The position numbers and the translations under genes are program-made. DNA of 64,000 nt from Frigoriglobus tundricola (GTDB lineage Bacteria > Planctomycetota > Planctomycetia > Gemmatales > Gemmataceae). The notes under the pieces are model-generated. The model had not been told where the DNA came from, ran no database searches, and saw only the letters and a program-made list of their open reading frames with translations. Positions 9,804 through 18,537 of the stretch are shown here, piece by piece; the stretch's first letter is position 1, and every line of letters begins with the position of its first letter. The stretch spans positions 2,418,001 to 2,482,000 of the forward strand of contig NZ_CP053452.2 in NCBI RefSeq assembly GCF_013128195.2. The letters run 5' to 3'.

Positions 9804-9920
9804 CGCCGGGAATTGTTACCGGAAGAGTCGCGTCGCCCGTCATGCCGCTCCAAATGCCCACCTTGCAGGGATGTCATCCGCGTGCTCCCAAGGACGAAGA
9901 CCGAATGAGGGTGATTGCCA

Positions 9921-12674
9921 ATGGGAAATCCGCTCCGTGTGCTCGTCGTTGCTGACTCACCGGCCGCCGCCGAACGAACGCTCTTCGCACTCCGGCAGGG
10001 GGGACTCGAACCGAAGTGGGAGCGGGCGGACACGGCCGACGGGCTGCGCGGGGCCCTGACCGCGGGGCCGTGGGACGCGGTGGTCTCGGACGGTACCCCC
10101 TCCGGCTCCGGCCTTGATGTCGTCCGTGCCGCCGACCCGGATCTCCCGTTCGTCGTCGTCTCGGGGGCGGGCGGTGAGGACGTTGCGGTCGCGCTGATGC
10201 GGGCCGGGGCGAGCGACTGCGTCCGCGAGCACGACCTCGACCGCCTGGCACCCGTGGTCGAGCGGGAGGTCCGGGAGGCCGGTGCCCGGCGGGCGAAGCG
10301 GGCCGGCGCGCGGGCGACCGCCCACCTGGCGGCCGTCGTCGAGTCGTCCGAGGACGCCATCATCTCGGCGAAGGCCGGCGACGGCGTCGTCACGAGCTGG
10401 AACCCGGCGGCCGAGCGGCTCTACGGGTGGACCGCGGCCGCGGCCGTCGGGCGCCACGTCTCGTTCTTTGTCCCTCCCGACAAGACCGACGAACTGGACG
10501 GGATCATGCGTCGGTTACGGGCGGGCGAGCGGGTCGAGTATTTCGAGACCGTTCGGTTGCACCGGGACGGCCGACGGATCGACGTTTCGCTCACCATCTC
10601 CCCGGTCCGGGACGCGGACGGCCAACTGATCGGCGTGTCGAAGATCGCCCGCGACATCCGGGAGCGCAAGAGGGCCGAGGAGGCGCTGCGGCGGAGCGAG
10701 GAGCGCTACCGGGGGCTGATCGAATCCATCCCCGCGCTGGTGTGGGTGTACGACGCCACCGGGCGGCCGTTGCTCCACAACCACCGGTGGCACGAGTACA
10801 CCGGGCAGAGCCCCGAGGACGTTGCGGCCGACCGGTGGCACGAGGCCGTTCACCCGGACGACGCGGCCCGGGCCTGTGCCGTCTGGGAGCGCTGCAAGGC
10901 GAGCGGTGAGCCGTACACCTGCGAGTACCGGCTCCGCCGGGCCGACGGAGTGTACCGCTGGTTCCTCTCACAGGGGATCCGGTCGCGGGACTCCGGGGGG
11001 ACCGACCAGTGGGTCGGGATCTGCACGGACATCGACGACCGGATGGGGGCCGAGGACGCCCTCCGGTTACGGGACCGAACCATCCAGGCGGCGACCCAGG
11101 GGCTCATGATCACGGACTCCGGCCGCCCGGACAACCCGCTCGTGTACGTCAGCCCGGGGTTCGAGCGGATGACCGGGTACGGGTCGGCGGAAGTGCTCGG
11201 CCGCAACTGCCGGATGCTCCAGGGCAAGGACACGGACCCCGCAACGGTCGCGCGGCTTCGGGAGGCGATCCGGGCGGGGGAGCCGCGCACGGTCGAACTG
11301 CTGAACTACCGGAAGGACGGAACCCCGTTCTGGAACGAACTGTCGGTCTCCCCGGTCCGCGACGCGACCGGCCGGCTGACGCACTTCGTCGGGGTTCAGG
11401 TGGACGTGACCGCCCGGCGGAGCCTGGAGGACCAGTTCCGCCAGGCGCAGAAGATGGAGGCGGTCGGGCAACTCGCGGCGGGCGTGGCACACGATTTCAA
11501 CAACCTGCTCACCATCATCAACGGGTACAGCGACCTGCTCCTTCAGGGCCTCGCCGCGGACGACCCGGCCCGGAACCTGGTCGCCGAGATCCTCAAGGCC
11601 GGGGAGCGCTCGGCCGGACTGACGCGCCAGCTCCTGGCGTTCAGCCGGCAACAGGTTCTGGCCCCGCGCGTTCTCGACATCAACGCGGTGGTGACGGACA
11701 CCGAGAAGATGCTCCGCCGGCTGATCGGGGAGGACGTTCGGCTCACGACCACCCTGGCCCCCGACCTGTGGGCGGTCCGCGCCGACCCCGGTCAGGTCGA
11801 GCAGGTGCTCATGAACCTCGCGGTGAACGCCCGCGACGCGATGCCCCGCGGCGGTCGGCTGACGATCGAGACCCGGAACGTCGATCTGGACGGCGCGTAC
11901 GCTCGGACCAACCCGGACGCCCGCGCCGGCCCGCACGTGCTCCTGAGCGTGATGGACACCGGGGTCGGGATGACACCAGAGGTCCAGGCTAAGATCTTCG
12001 AGCCGTTCTTCACCACGAAGGGGCCGGGCAAGGGCACCGGGTTGGGGCTGGCCACCGTGTACGGCGTCGTGAAGCAGAGCGGCGGGCACGTCGGCGTGTA
12101 CTCCGAAGTCGGGGTCGGGACCGCGTTCAAGGTGTACTTGCCCCGGGCGGAGCGGGCGCCCGGTGAATCGCCGAGCCACTCGGGACTTCGGGCCGCGCCG
12201 CGCGGGACGGAAACGGTTCTGCTGGTCGAAGACGAGGACGGGGTCCGCGCCCTGACCCGTCGCGTATTGACCGGGTCCGGGTACACGGTCATCGAAGCGG
12301 CCGACGGGGACGAGGCCGTCCGTCTGGCGACCGTGCACGAGGGGCCGATTCACCTGTTGGTCACCGACGTGGTGATGCCCGGTCCGGGCGGGCGAGTGGT
12401 CGCCGAACGGGTGGCGGAGTTGCACCCCGGAATACGCGTGCTGTTCGTTTCCGGGTACACAGACGATGCGGTCATCCGGCACGGTGTGCTCCGGGAGGGG
12501 GTGAACTTCCTGCAGAAGCCGTTCGCCCCGATACTCCTGGCGTTCAAGGTGCGCGAGGCGCTGGACGCGCCGAGCGGCAACCGACAGCCGCGGATGCCCG
12601 GCCCGGTCCGGGCTCCGTCATCTGAAAAGCTGCACACTGTGCCGGGCGCCGGACCCGAGGAACGTGCCGAATGA
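9921..12674 (+). CDS. Hybrid histidine kinase with LOV-type PAS domain
   Basis: 917 residues. Domains in order: receiver (~5-125, Asp57 in VVSDG); PAS (~135-250); PAS with PAC (~260-375); a third PAS (~385-490) with the LOV signature GRNCRMLQG (Cys430), [11 protein letters not shown] and FVGVQ; HisKA with VAHDFNN (His524); HATPase with N-box [17 protein letters not shown] and GKGTGLGL; and a C-terminal receiver (Asp816 in VTDVVMP). LOV domains bind flavin and form a cysteinyl adduct in blue light, so this is probably a light- or redox-responsive phosphorelay kinase. The ATG at 9921 with upstream AGGGTG is preferred to a TTG six bases earlier. Its stop overlaps a truncated response-regulator start. 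Confidence 0.9.
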
Positions 12675-12738
12675 CCTCCCACGAACGGACGTGCCGCACG
12701 ATCCTGGTCACGGACGACAAGCCCGGGATCACCAAGCG
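12671..12738 (+). pseudogene. Response-regulator 5' remnant
   Basis: The ATG at 12671 overlaps the kinase stop (ATGA) and encodes [20 protein letters not shown], whose TILVTDDKPGI is the first strand and acidic pair of a receiver domain. Homology ends within about 22 codons and the DNA switches to a transporter fragment in another frame. This appears to be the amputated partner regulator of the kinase. Confidence 0.6.
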
Positions 12739-13062
12739 GTCGTTTTGGTCGGCACGTGGAGTCTGTTCCGGCAATCGCACAGCCGGATGTTCGACGGCGT
12801 GCCGGACAATATCGACCTGTCTGCGGTGGTGCGCTACCTCGAGACCCTGCCCGGGGTCGAGCGGGTCCACGATTTGCACGTCTAGGCAACGGGCACCTCG
12901 GAGACCGCCCTGACCGCACACCTGGTGATGCCGACAGGTCACCCGGACGAAGTATTCTTCGACGCCGTGACGCGGGGACTGCACGACCTCTTCGGTATCG
13001 AACACGTGACGTTGCAGGTGGTTCGAGTGCCGTTCACGGTTCCGTGCAGACGGAAGCCCTGA
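12739..13062 (+). pseudogene. CDF (CzcD-type) cation transporter 3' remnant
   Basis: The frame starting VVLVGTWSLFRQS reads into DGVPDNIDLSAVVRYLETL and PGVERVHDLHV. This is the end of the last membrane helix plus the cytoplasmic domain of cation diffusion facilitators, which export Zn, Co or Cd. At the invariant Trp of HDLHVW there is a TAG (12883-12885). After it the frame resumes with TALTAHLVMPTGH and HVTLQVV to a TGA at 13060. The N-terminal ~200 codons and all metal-binding helices are missing, so it cannot be functional. Confidence 0.75.
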
Positions 13063-13109
13063 ACCGTCTGATTGAATGTGCAACCCACACTGGTGCGAAA
13101 GGAGCAGTG

Positions 13110-13703
13110 ATGCCCGGTCTCGATGTCGGCGACCGCGTGGCCGACCTGACGTTCCTCCGCCCCGCCGGCACCGCGGGCCGCCTGTCCGAGTTCCCCGGGC
13201 CGCTGTTGCTGGTATTCCTCCGCCACCTGCGCTGAATCTCCTGCCTGGCGCACCTCGTGCAGGTGCGGGAACGTCTCGACGAGATTCAACGGGCGGGTGC
13301 GGACGTGCTGGTCATAACGCAGTCACAGCCGGGGGCGGTATCCGCCGCATCGCTCCCGCTGCCGACGGTGTGTGACCCCGACCGGGCCGCTTACCGCTAC
13401 TTCGGTCTGGATCGCGGGCGGTGGTCGATGTTCCTCCGGTGGGGCGTGCTCGCGCGATACCTGCGCCTCATATTCACCGGCTGGCGACCGCACCGCGGGG
13501 AGGCCGGGGAAGACATGCTCCAACTGGGCGGGGATTTCATCCTCTCGGCCGACCGGCACCTCCTGTACGCTCACCGGAGCAATGATCCGGCCGACAGGCC
13601 CTCGGCGGCTGACCTCGTCGCCCAGATCCGCCATCTGACCCGCCCGCCGGCGGGCGGCACAGTCCGAGAGATGGTCTCATCACCCGACGAAAGCGCCCTA
13701 TGA
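13110..13703 (+). CDS. AhpC/TSA_2 (SelL-related) redoxin, candidate selenoprotein
   Basis: 197 codons if the TGA at 13233 is read through. The N-terminus ([15 protein letters not shown]...[17 protein letters not shown]) stops at TGA exactly where peroxiredoxin-like relatives have the first Cys of a CxxC motif. The frame continues as [14 protein letters not shown] and on through [39 protein letters not shown] and ADLVAQI to 13703. This gives U42-I-S-C45. Both halves keep family-level conservation. An AAGGAG ribosome site precedes the ATG. The stop overlaps the P-type ATPase start (ATGA). The role is probably thiol or selenol redox defence. The alternative is a nonsense mutation. Confidence 0.65.
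13249..13267 (+). promoter_or_regulatory. SECIS-like stem-loop downstream of in-frame TGA
   Basis: CGCACCT-CGTGC-AGGTGCG forms a 7-bp stem with a 5-base loop. The loop starts 20 bases after the TGA at 13233-13235 and has G and T as its second and third bases. Bacterial SECIS elements lie immediately 3' of the UGA within the coding region, with a small G-containing apical loop at about this distance. Confidence 0.45.
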
Positions 13704-15592
13704 CACGACCACAAGATGCGGCTCCTCCGACCGCCCTACCGGGGCGGTTCCAGATTCGCATCGCGGTGCTCGCGGTGGCTTGCATCGCGGTCCACCTCGT
13801 GGCCCGGTATATCCTGGCGGATTGGCTACCGACCACAACGCCGGCCGTCTGGAACGCGCCGCTGATTGTGGCTCTCGGGCTGGGTGGGCTGCCACTCCTC
13901 TGGGGCCTGCTTCGGGCGCTCGCCCGCGGCGCGTTCGGGTCCGATCTCCTGGCCGGCATCTCCATCGTCACGTCGGTCGTACTCAGCGAATACCTGGCGG
14001 GTACGCTGGTCGTGCTCATGCTCTCGGGCGGCCAGGCGCTCGAGGCGTACGCCGTCCGGAAGGCGTCCGCGGTTCTCGCAGCCCTCGCCGGCCGGATGCC
14101 GGCCGTGGCCCACCGGAAGGCCGGCGGAGCGGTGGCCGACGTGGCGCTCGATGGGGTCGCCGTCGGGGACGCGCTGGTCGTCTTCCCGCACGAGATCTGC
14201 CCGGCCGACGGGACCGTCCTCGAAGGGCACGGGTCGATGAACGAGGCGTATCTGACCGGCGAGCCGTACGAGGTGTCGAAGACCCCGGGCGCGGCCGTTC
14301 TGTCCGGGGCGGTGAACGGGGCGTCGGCCCTGACCGTGCGAGTCGATCATCTGCCGACCGACTCCCGCTACGCCAAGATCATGCGGGTGATGCAGGACGC
14401 CGAACAGAAGCGGCCCCGGCTCCGCCGGCTCGGCGATCAACTCGGGGCGGTCTACACCCCGGTCGCGGTCGCCGTTGCGCTCGCGGCGTGGGCCGTCAGT
14501 GGCGACCCGCTGCGGTTCCTGGCCGTCCTCGTCGTCGCCACCCCGTGCCCGCTGCTAATCGCCATCCCGGTGGCGCTCATCGGGGCGGTGTCCCTGGCCG
14601 CCCGCCGGGCGATCATCATCAAGGACCCGGCCGTTCTGGAGAAGATCGGTACCTGTCGGGTCGCCATCTTCGACAAGACCGGGACGCTCACATACGGCAA
14701 GCCGTCCCTTGCCGAACTGATCGTCGGGGACGGTTTCGACCGGGGCGACGTCCTCACTCTCGTCGCGAGTCTGGAGCGGTACTCGAAGCACCCCCTGGCC
14801 GGGGCCGTGTTGGACGCCGCGATTGCAGCCAAGCTCAAAACGCTCGATGCGTCCGAGGTCGGCGAGAAACCGGGGCAAGGGTTGACGGGCGTGATCGGCG
14901 GGCGTCGCGTCCGGGTCACGAGCCGCGGCATGCTCCCCGGCACGAATCCCAAAGTGATCGCCGCTCTCCCGCCGGAAGTCGGCGGCATGGAGTGTGTCGT
15001 GTTGGTCGATGACCGACTGGCGGGCACGCTCCGGTTCCGCGACCAACCCCGGGCCGAGGGCGAGCCGTTCATCCGCCACCTGGGCCGGAAGCACCAGTTC
15101 GACCGGGTCCTCCTCGTCTCAGGGGATCGCGAGTCCGAGGCGAAGTATCTGGCCGACCAGGTGGGCATCACGGAGGTGTTCGCGGGCCAGACGCCGGAGC
15201 AGAAGTTGGAGATCGTCCGCCGGGAGACGGCGGCCGCGAACACCGTGTTCATGGGCGACGGGATCAACGACGCACCGGCGCTGACCGCGGCCACCGTCGG
15301 CATCGCGTTCGGGCAGAACAGCGATGTCACGGCCGAGGCGGCCGGGGCCGTGATCCTCGACGCCACCCTGCGGAAGGTGGACGAACTGCTGCACATCAGC
15401 CGCCGGTTGCGGGCGATCGCGTTACAGAGCGCCGTCGGCGGGATGGCGCTGAGCCTCGTCGGCATGGTCGCCGCGGCGGCCGGCTACCTGCCCCCCGTGG
15501 CCGGGGCGGTGTTTCAGGAGGCCATCGACGTGCTCGCCGTCCTGAACGCACTGCGGATGGCGTTCCCGCCACGGTCGCTGACCGACTACTGA
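13700..15592 (+). CDS. Heavy-metal P1B-type ATPase
   Basis: 630 residues. There is no N-terminal metal-binding domain. Motifs: actuator [11 protein letters not shown], transmembrane metal site [10 protein letters not shown], phosphorylation [10 protein letters not shown], and hinge [10 protein letters not shown]. Membrane pairs lie near residues 20-105, 255-310 and 575-610. The TPC motif, in place of CPC, is the signature reported for the P1B-5 group. The substrate is a transition metal, not identifiable further. The start overlaps the upstream redoxin stop in ATGA, so redoxin and pump are co-translated, suggesting the redoxin protects against or senses the same metal or oxidative stress (inference). 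Confidence 0.85.
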
Positions 15593-15690: not shown

Positions 15691-18537
15691 ATGAAACAAG
15701 TCAGCACGCCCGGTCCGAACAATGCCGCGAGTGCCGACCGCACGACGACGGGTCCCCCCGCCGACTCTGCGGGCGGGCGGCTCGGCGTCGGCAGCGAGCA
15801 AGAACGCCCGTGGCACACGCTGTCGGCTGATGAGGTCGCCGGCGCGCTCCAGGCCGACGCGACGAGCGGCCTGACCGACGGCGAGGCGGCCCGGCGGCGC
15901 GAGCAGTTTGGCCCGAACGCTCTGGCCGCAGCGAAGGGACGCTCCGCCCTCGCGATCCTCGTGGATCAGTTCGAGAGCCTGATCGTGGTACTGCTCCTCG
16001 TGGTCACCGTCGTCGCGTTCGCGCTCGGGGACAACGTCGAGGCGGTCGCCGTCCTGGTGGTCGTCGTCCTGAACGCGGCCGTCGGCTTCCTGACCGAGTG
16101 GAAGGCCGAACAGGCGCTCACCGCACTGCAACAGCAGGCGGTGCCTACGGCCCACGTCGTCCGCGGGGGCGAGGAGCACGAGATCCCCGCGGCCGAGCTG
16201 GTGCCCGGCGACATCGTCCTCGTCGCCGCCGGGTCGCGTGTGCCCGCCGACGGGCGCGTGATCGAGTGCGTGCGGTTGCAGGTGGCGGAGGCCGCGCTGA
16301 CGGGAGAGTCACTCGCGGTCACGAAGACCGTCGAACCTATCCCCGACGACACCGCCCCGCTCGGCGACCGGCGGAACATGGCCTACCTGGGCACCGCGGT
16401 CACGGACGGCCGCGGCCGGCTCCTCGTGACGGCCACCGGCGTGCGCACCGAGGTGGGCCGGATCGGGAAACTGATCGAGGTGGCCGGCGCCCGTGACACC
16501 CCTCTCGAACGCAAACTGGCGCAGCTCGGCCACGCGCTGATCGGCGTCGTCCTGGCCCTCTGCGCGGTCATCGTCCTGGCCGGCTGGCTGCGGGGACACG
16601 AGTTCTTTTACATGCTGAAGGTCGGCATCTCGCTGGCCATCGCGGCCGTGCCCGAGGGCCTGCCCGCCGTCGCCACCATGACGCTGGCGCTGGGCATGAA
16701 GCGCATGGCCCGCATGCACGCCCTCGTGCGCCGCCTGCCGGCCGTCGAGACGCTGGGTTCGACCACCGTCATCTGCACCGACAAGACCGGCACCCTGACC
16801 CGCGACGAGATGACCGTCCGGGTACTGCAACTCGGGACGCGCCGCGTCGATGTGTCGGGCGCGGGGTACGCGCGGGCCGGGGAGTTCCGCACGGGCGGCG
16901 GGGCGATTGATGTCCGAACCGACGCGCACCTGACGCTGGCCCTGCGGGTCGGTGCCCTGTGCTCCGACGCGACCCTCGACCTCACCGGCGAGGAAACCGT
17001 CGTCCTGGGCGACCCGACGGAAGGGGCGCTGCTCGTCGCAGCCCTCAAGGCCGGGATGAGCAAGGACGATCTGGAGCGGGAGTACCCGCGCCTCAGCGAG
17101 GTGCCGTTCAGCAGTGAGTCGAAACGGATGGTTACCGTCCACCGCACCCCGAGCGGGCGGGCGGTCGCCTACGTCAAGGGGGCTCCGGCCGTGGTGGCCG
17201 ATGCCAGCGTCGGGGCGTTCACCGGCGCGGGCGTCCGGGCGATGACCACCGAGATCCGGCAGCGGGTGCTGGCGGACAATCACGAACTGGCCGGGCGGGC
17301 GCTGCGCGTCCTCGCGTTGGGGTACAAAGATTTGCCCGACGGCTATCGCGAGGAGGATCTGACCGGCGGCTTCGTGTTCGTCGGGCTGGTCGGCATGATC
17401 GACCCGCTGCGGGATGAGGCGAAGGCGGCCATCGAGACGTGTCGCGTCGCGGGCATCCGCACGGTGATGATCACCGGCGATCAGGAGGCGACGGCCGCCG
17501 AGATCGGCCGGCAGCTCGGCCTCGACCGCGATCTCCAGGGGCGCCCGCTGCGGACCGCCCATGGCCGGGAACTGGCCGACCTGGACGCCGCCGGCTGGCA
17601 GAAGGTCGCCGCGGAAGTCGGCGTGTTCACCCGCGTTTCCCCCGAGCACAAGCTGCGGATCGTCGAGGCGCTGCAGGCCGCGGGCGAGGTGGTGGCGATG
17701 ACCGGCGACGGGGTGAACGACGCCCCGGCGCTGAAGCAGGCCGACATCGGCATCGCGATGGGGGTCAAGGGCACCGAGGTGGCCAAGGAAGCGGCGGCCA
17801 TGGTCGTCACCGACGACAACTTCGCCACCATCGTCGGGGCCGTCGAACAGGGGCGGGGCATCTACGCCAACATCCTCCGCTTCGTTCACTACCTGTTCTC
17901 CTGCAATCTGGCGGAGATCCTGGTGGTGTTCATCGCCCTCATGGTGGGCTGGCCGCTACCGCTAGTGGCACTACAGATCCTGTGGCTGAATATGATTACC
18001 GACGTGTTCCCCGCGATGGCTCTGGCCCTGGAACCGTCGAACCCGGACGCGATGAAGCGCCCGCCCCGCGACCCCGGGGAGTCGCTCGTGACGCCGCGGT
18101 TCCTCTGGCTGATCACCTGGCAGGCCCTGCTCCTGAGCGGGGTGACGCTGCTGGCGTTCGCGGTCGGCATGCGGTGGTACGGCGCCGAGGGCTCCGGCCT
18201 GCGGCACGCGACCACGCTGGCCTTCATGACGCTGGCCCTGGTCCAGGTGTTCCACACCTTCAACGCCCGCTCGCAGCGCCGCTCGGCGTTCACCGCCCGG
18301 CTGTTCACAAACGCATGGCTCTGGGCGGCGGTGGCGACGTGCCTGCTCCTCCAGTTGGCGGCGGTCTACACGCCGCTGCTGCAAACCGTGCTGCACACCA
18401 CGCCGCTCTCCGCCGCCGACTGGGTGGCGGTGCTGACCTGTTCCCTGGCCCCGGTCGGCGTGGTCGAGCTGGTCAAGTTCGGCCGGCGGGCGTCCGAACC
18501 ACGAGCGAGGATCTCAAGAGCAAGGGGTTCTCCCTGA
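15691..18537 (+). CDS. P2-type (Ca2+-like) cation ATPase
   Basis: 948 residues. An N-terminal cation-ATPase domain ([17 protein letters not shown]) precedes actuator [15 protein letters not shown] in transmembrane helix 4, [12 protein letters not shown], a large nucleotide domain, [16 protein letters not shown], and a C-terminal set of six helices. PEGLP and the overall length point to the SERCA/PMR1-like class that exports Ca2+ or Mn2+. About 45 disordered residues precede the domain. The last ~15 residues (after VELVKFGRR) read differently from the family and coincide with the start of another gene remnant, so the end may have been altered by recombination. Confidence 0.88.

Follow-up and report, generated by a model that had tools for sequence, protein, structure and literature searches.

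The locus described here, in a window of 64,000 nucleotides from Frigoriglobus tundricola, raises the question of whether an in-frame TGA in a redoxin gene is decoded as selenocysteine (Sec), is decoded in some other way, or marks a gene that has been lost. Positions 13110-13703 of the plus strand form a single frame of 198 codons, counting the terminal TGA, in which the TGA at 13233-13235 is the sole internal stop. The genome has the Sec machinery, the TGA is conserved, the sequence before and after it is constrained, and a conserved RNA stem follows it; on these grounds we consider it highly probable that the product is a selenoprotein from the SelL-related branch of the AhpC/TSA_2 redoxins with Sec inserted at this codon, and the TGA would almost certainly be read as Sec here, as in dozens of relatives. 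As such, one more well-supported selenoprotein is added to those already described.

Gene layout and protein family

The features of the locus are collected in Table 1. The stop codon of the redoxin gene and the start codon of the following heavy-metal ATPase gene share the sequence ATGA (13700-13703), and a second P-type ATPase further downstream (15691-18537) is of the calcium-pump kind, yet the calcium models score it below their curated cut-offs. Upstream lie a gene for a PAS-domain histidine kinase (9915-12674) and the remnant of a CDF transporter, of which the C-terminal part only is present; it matches Pfam ZT_dimer (PF16916) with an E-value of 4.7e-10 when its TAG is read as X, while each of its two pieces scored alone against PF16916 remains under the cut-off. 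The TAG presumably takes the position of a conserved Trp. Within the redoxin frame, the GTG at 13257 is a possible start of a 148-residue downstream product, and a standard gene caller would probably split the gene in two, leaving a stub of 41 residues and a fragment downstream of it. The initial annotation of this DNA had described the uninterrupted frame apart from the one TGA, a Cys three residues past it (UxxC), a 7-bp stem starting 13 bases after the TGA with its loop 20 bases away, the ATGA coupling and the CDF remnant with its internal stop, and all of these were found again in the sequence.

Table 1. Positions of the features at the selenoprotein locus, numbered within the window.
Feature	Position	Strand	Evidence
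Gene, very probably for a selenoprotein; SelL-related redox protein (AhpC/TSA_2, thioredoxin fold)	13110-13703	+	197 residues and stop; PF13911, NF040769, AlphaFold2
TGA, almost certainly Sec (residue 42)	13233-13235	+	Sec machinery; 59 of 65 family rows TGA, 6 Cys
Cys45, partner in UxxC, likely resolving role	13242-13244	+	Column invariant in 47 aligned rows
Shine-Dalgarno-like AAAGGAG (core AAGGAG), putative	13098-13104	+	Sequence; 5 bases 5' of the ATG
SECIS-type stem-loop inside the coding sequence, predicted	13249-13267	+	Fold (30-mer), covariation, synonymous-site constraint
Heavy-metal P-type (IB) ATPase	13700-15592	+	TIGR01525, 472 bits (cut-off 346)
CDF zinc transporter, C-terminal remnant, separate from the selenoprotein	12748-13062	+	PF16916; TAG at 12883-12885 breaks the frame

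The family label proposed earlier, AhpC/TSA_2 and SelL-related, was borne out by the NCBIfam model NF040769 (SelL_rel_redox), which the protein passes with 180.8 bits against a cut-off of 120 (domain 10-173), followed by PF13911 (48 bits, cut-off 27) and PF00578 (31.9 bits, cut-off 26). The AlphaFold2 model, computed with Cys in place of Sec, has a mean pLDDT of 94.7 and a pTM of 0.87 and places residue 42 just ahead of a helix (43-54), as in thioredoxin-fold redoxins. Among the 50 PDB matches listed by Foldseek, most are peroxiredoxins (PrxQ/BCP, AhpE), with TM-scores up to 0.66 by query length, and a profile search of the PDB likewise puts Prx-like proteins first (2ywn, E 9.7e-11), so that Pfam and the fold both identify an AhpC/TSA redoxin with a thioredoxin fold. 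With the window protein alone, phmmer found nothing convincing in the PDB, the best match (E 0.0022) being an AI-designed barrel. The family profile also matches the prostamide/prostaglandin F synthase 9us9 over positions 15-175, almost its full length (E 3.6e-8); that enzyme, which was not found with the window protein alone, belongs to a different lineage, and its activity is not transferable. The active site reads R38-H39-L-R-U42-I-S-C45, in other words RHLxUxxC in place of the PxxxTxxC of classic peroxiredoxins.

The window protein is a full member of NF040769 with nothing essential different, and members with TGA are common in its taxonomic family and are also found in other parts of the class; compared with the other members, the window copy forms a separate lineage and adjoins a heavy-metal ATPase. 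SelL proper has two Sec residues, one at each motif position (UxxU, a diselenide), whereas the second position in the window protein is Cys45; the two are related by the NCBI family name. Both are Prx-like, as SelL is called in PMC2398784. Outside the taxonomic family, one distant relative in the class (L137, G283:C19:61999-62487) has a second TGA three residues on, which gives UxxU as in SelL. In two reviews, the prokaryotic AhpC/TSA_2 selenoprotein is assigned to pfam13911 / cd02970 and has UxxS, and the Prx-like thiol:disulfide oxidoreductase selenoprotein is assigned to PF00578 and has UxxC or UxxU (PMC9312934, PMC13188914). Compared by these descriptions, the window protein shares PF13911 and Sec at the first active-site position with the former but has UxxC instead of UxxS, and it shares UxxC and PF00578 with the latter but fits better in PF13911 and NF040769. 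The family is thus already curated and this kind of selenoprotein already described. The gene is unmentioned in the consulted parts of PMC4807772, PMC2398784, PMC13188914, PMC9312934, PMC5330540 and PMC1794560, which is not proof that it is unreported, and our literature search returned no paper pairing 'SelL-related' with 'selenoprotein'.

Decoding of the TGA codon

The initial annotation had proposed Sec insertion, to be checked by a search for selA, selB, selC and selD and by a comparison of orthologues at the codon, and it had regarded a genome lacking selB or selC, or close relatives with TGC together with a decaying downstream half, as evidence to the contrary. The genome (9.86 Mb in 2 contigs) contains all four components. 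A tRNA-Sec at C1:6239723-6239816 scores 74.7 bits with the Rfam model (gathering score 47) and is called tRNA-SeC with a TCA anticodon by ARAGORN, while SelA (550.1 bits, cut-off 268), SelB (345.1 bits joined, cut-off 242) and SelD (385.9 bits, cut-off 125) exceed thresholds that are passed in only 1, 2 and 2, respectively, of the 14 control genomes used for the machinery profile searches. The tRNA-Sec model is unspecific at its cut-off, being passed in 5 of the 14 controls and at a second place in this genome with 47.1 bits, and it is therefore the 74.7-bit match together with the ARAGORN call that carries the case for tRNA-Sec. Full sets of Sec-insertion genes are described for Gemmata obscuriglobus and Isosphaera pallida in PMC4807772.

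When 95 genomes of the same family were searched, 63 of them yielded a total of 69 rows, of which 66 were read, three weak ones (E 5.9e-4 to 7.1e-4) being left out; one further row (L087, G027:C475) was dropped, as its match spans the C-terminal half of the protein only and gives no alignment at the codon. The 65 alignable rows, that of the window included, have TGA in 59 cases (58 genomes), TGC in four and TGT in two, and no other codon occurs at residue 42. Both nearest relatives, G046 and G044 (about 73% and 55-58% identical), have TGA. In the class, the cut-off of NF040769 is passed in 164 of 397 genomes, compared with none of the 14 controls. Our class sample was chosen by stop status and consists of the 16 TGA rows outside the family among the matches listed, all with the TGA at the residue-42 codon, and 20 hand-picked stop-free rows, all with TGC or TGT there. 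With the window protein as the only query, a scan of named genomes added two distant Chloroflexi loci (31-33% identity).

Selection on the protein does not end at the TGA. Against the nearest locus (L020), dN/dS is 0.197/0.51 before the codon and 0.171/0.82 after it, and dN was below dS on both sides in all 9 pairs tried; judged by these rates, the region after the TGA is under amino-acid constraint, whereas a dead downstream half would be expected to behave otherwise. R38, H39, residue 42, C45 and G141 are invariant in 47 aligned rows. What is expected of a bacterial selenoprotein gene, namely a TGA flanked by conserved coding sequence, Sec/Cys pairs among relatives and the insertion machinery, was thus found in each respect, and neither of the contrary outcomes named by the initial annotation was observed.

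These data bear directly on the alternative that the TGA is a recent nonsense change from Cys to stop and the gene a pseudogene, with the Sec machinery serving other genes. The broken CDF gene just upstream would suit such a history, as would the existence of Cys copies of the same protein, one of them in the same genome. The alternative is refuted in the main by the 58 of 64 other rows that share the TGA at this codon, and the purifying selection after the TGA argues against it as well, so that the change from TGC to TGA considered by the initial annotation falls away and a pseudogene seems very improbable.

The main loose end in the case for a selenoprotein lies in the distribution of the tRNA. 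Using a threshold of 60 bits, our own choice, which sets aside recurrent matches of 40-55 bits that we take for other long-armed tRNAs, tRNA-Sec was found in 76 of the 95 family genomes, comprising 46 of the 58 genomes with a TGA row and 30 further ones without such a row. In the remaining 12 TGA genomes, the nearest relative G046 included, no tRNA-Sec scored above 60 bits, and a laxer re-search reached 53.9 at best. Given that SelA is over its cut-off in 11 of these 12 (G082 being the exception) and that all 12 are draft assemblies of 190 to 820 contigs, we tentatively read the missing tRNAs as assembly gaps.

The stem-loop after the TGA

In the window, bases 13249-13255 pair with 13261-13267 (7 bp) around a loop of five bases (13256-13260) with G in second place, and the position of the stem fits the spacing rule of bacterial SECIS elements. 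As proof by itself the stem was rejected, since folding of the single sequence is no better than that of shuffled ones: the 30-mer is ordinary (z -0.43; 58 of 200 shuffles equally good), and the best folds of the 40-mer (z -1.63) and the 48-mer (z -1.31) both form a different stem. Rfam returned two matches only over 12600-14200, both far under the gathering score and on the opposite strand, and RNAalifold gave no consensus structure.

The named stem was then tested by counting pairs in 57 distinct sequences, in which it corresponds to columns 18-24 with 28-34. The consensus stem is paired in 87.5% of cells compared with 79.0% after shuffling, and its covariation score is 0.243 compared with 0.095, neither value being reached in any of 500 shuffles; slid versions of the stem are paired in at most 53.1% and covary at no more than 0.107. 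Pairs with double changes (3) and further pair types (9) were not above shuffles. Codon choice, an independent measure, points in the same direction: the stem Val, whose codon has to end in G, is encoded by GTG in 47 of 48 TGA rows with Val compared with 234 of 593 Val codons downstream (Fisher p 4e-17), and the Glu/Gln codon of the stem ends in G in 47 of 48 compared with 324 of 644 further downstream (p 2e-12). These tests leave out the 11 of 59 rows with other residues at the Val or at the Glu/Gln place, and their p-values are too small, as rows of common ancestry cannot count as independent, but the effect is almost complete. It thus seems that the stem is above chance only in comparison across relatives, where covariation and codon constraint identify it as a SECIS-type element of the family, while in the single sequence it is not significant.

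The window sequence itself forms six of the seven consensus pairs, the seventh pair counted by the initial annotation being an outer one. Fewer than five of the seven are formed in 11 of the 59 family TGA rows (L064-L068, L069, L071, L075, L082-L084), which may have their stem in another position. Outside the family, TGA rows form 4-7 of the seven pairs and Cys rows 1-4, a weak control, since most Cys rows differ in the amino acids of the stem and protein divergence could explain the difference. The loop G, present in 58 of 59 TGA rows, is weak evidence as well, as the common Gly and Val codons there start with G anyway.

The covarying stem and the synonymous constraint across the family argue further against a pseudogene. 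Two readings without Sec, in which the TGA stands for a different amino acid (Trp, Cys) or serves as a regulated short stop, might draw on the GTG at 13257 as the start of the shorter product, but they were rejected as very unlikely in view of the dedicated tRNA-Sec with its TCA anticodon and the Sec machinery, of the Cys found in every relative without TGA (6 of 6 in the family, 20 of 20 in the class sample) and of a stem placed as a bacterial SECIS.

For the selenoprotein, the known bacterial pathway suggests that SelA and SelD make Sec on tRNA-Sec(UCA) and that SelB, bound to the stem at 13249-13267, would carry it to the ribosome, which would then insert Sec at the UGA rather than stop. 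By homology, Sec42 might attack an oxidised substrate, either a peroxide or a disulfide, Cys45 would then resolve it by forming a selenenyl-sulfide, and the protein would be restored by a thiol system of the cell. Since the gene overlaps that of a heavy-metal efflux ATPase, its role is probably redox protection under metal stress, which is our guess from gene order.

Two copies in one genome

The genome holds a second copy (L010, G000:C1:1979636-1980193) that is 43-47% identical to the window copy, has TGT (Cys) at the Sec codon and still forms all 7 of the 7 stem pairs. The TGA copies of the genus have matching surroundings. In a comparison of 9 genus genomes, the gene upstream, by its look presumably a glycosyltransferase, adjoins the copy in 8, and the gene at the other flank, which we take to be a cytochrome c peroxidase, does so in all 9 (searched with a frame on the opposite strand); at the window copy, L020 and L091, neither was found nearby. 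In the tree, the Cys copy lies inside the genus clade (96/93), with a bootstrap that is not quite settled. Given the genus synteny, its place in the genus clade and the intact stem pairs, the second copy would most simply be explained by a change from Sec to Cys that left the stem behind. It resembles in this respect the Cys proteins with a remnant bacterial SECIS described in PMC1794560, where Cys is likewise nested among Sec proteins and the stem kept, the two families concerned there (FdhA and HesB-like) being other protein families.

The window copy, in contrast, groups with those of G046 and G044, which belong to another genus (100/96), and its placement with its own genus was rejected (p-AU 2.0e-5, for a group named after the tree had been seen). 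Judging from this position in the tree, it either entered the genome from outside or is an old duplicate that the other genomes have lost. The selenoprotein gene of G046 also has a related ATPase (65%) beside it, upstream and not downstream; a 16-kb stretch of G044 gave no ATPase match, and neither did the shorter flanks searched at the other loci, so that the link to metals appears to be confined to two of the three members of this lineage.

Here we speculate, with more doubt than confidence, that the two copies form a Sec/Cys isozyme pair of unusual origin: the vertically inherited copy would have changed from Sec to Cys with a fossil stem left in place, and the genome would have acquired a second Sec copy, from another lineage, next to the heavy-metal ATPase. 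Metal stress, more than general peroxide defence, might then be the reason why the Sec copy was retained or acquired, or the two might alternate with selenium supply. Having a Sec-to-Cys switch and a Sec copy of the family in one genome provides a ready comparison for learning what the enzyme gains from selenium.

On the contig of G046 (L090), a match of 47 residues, to the C-terminal end of the window's second ATPase, lies downstream on the other strand, the neighbours being the same as in the window in a shuffled order.
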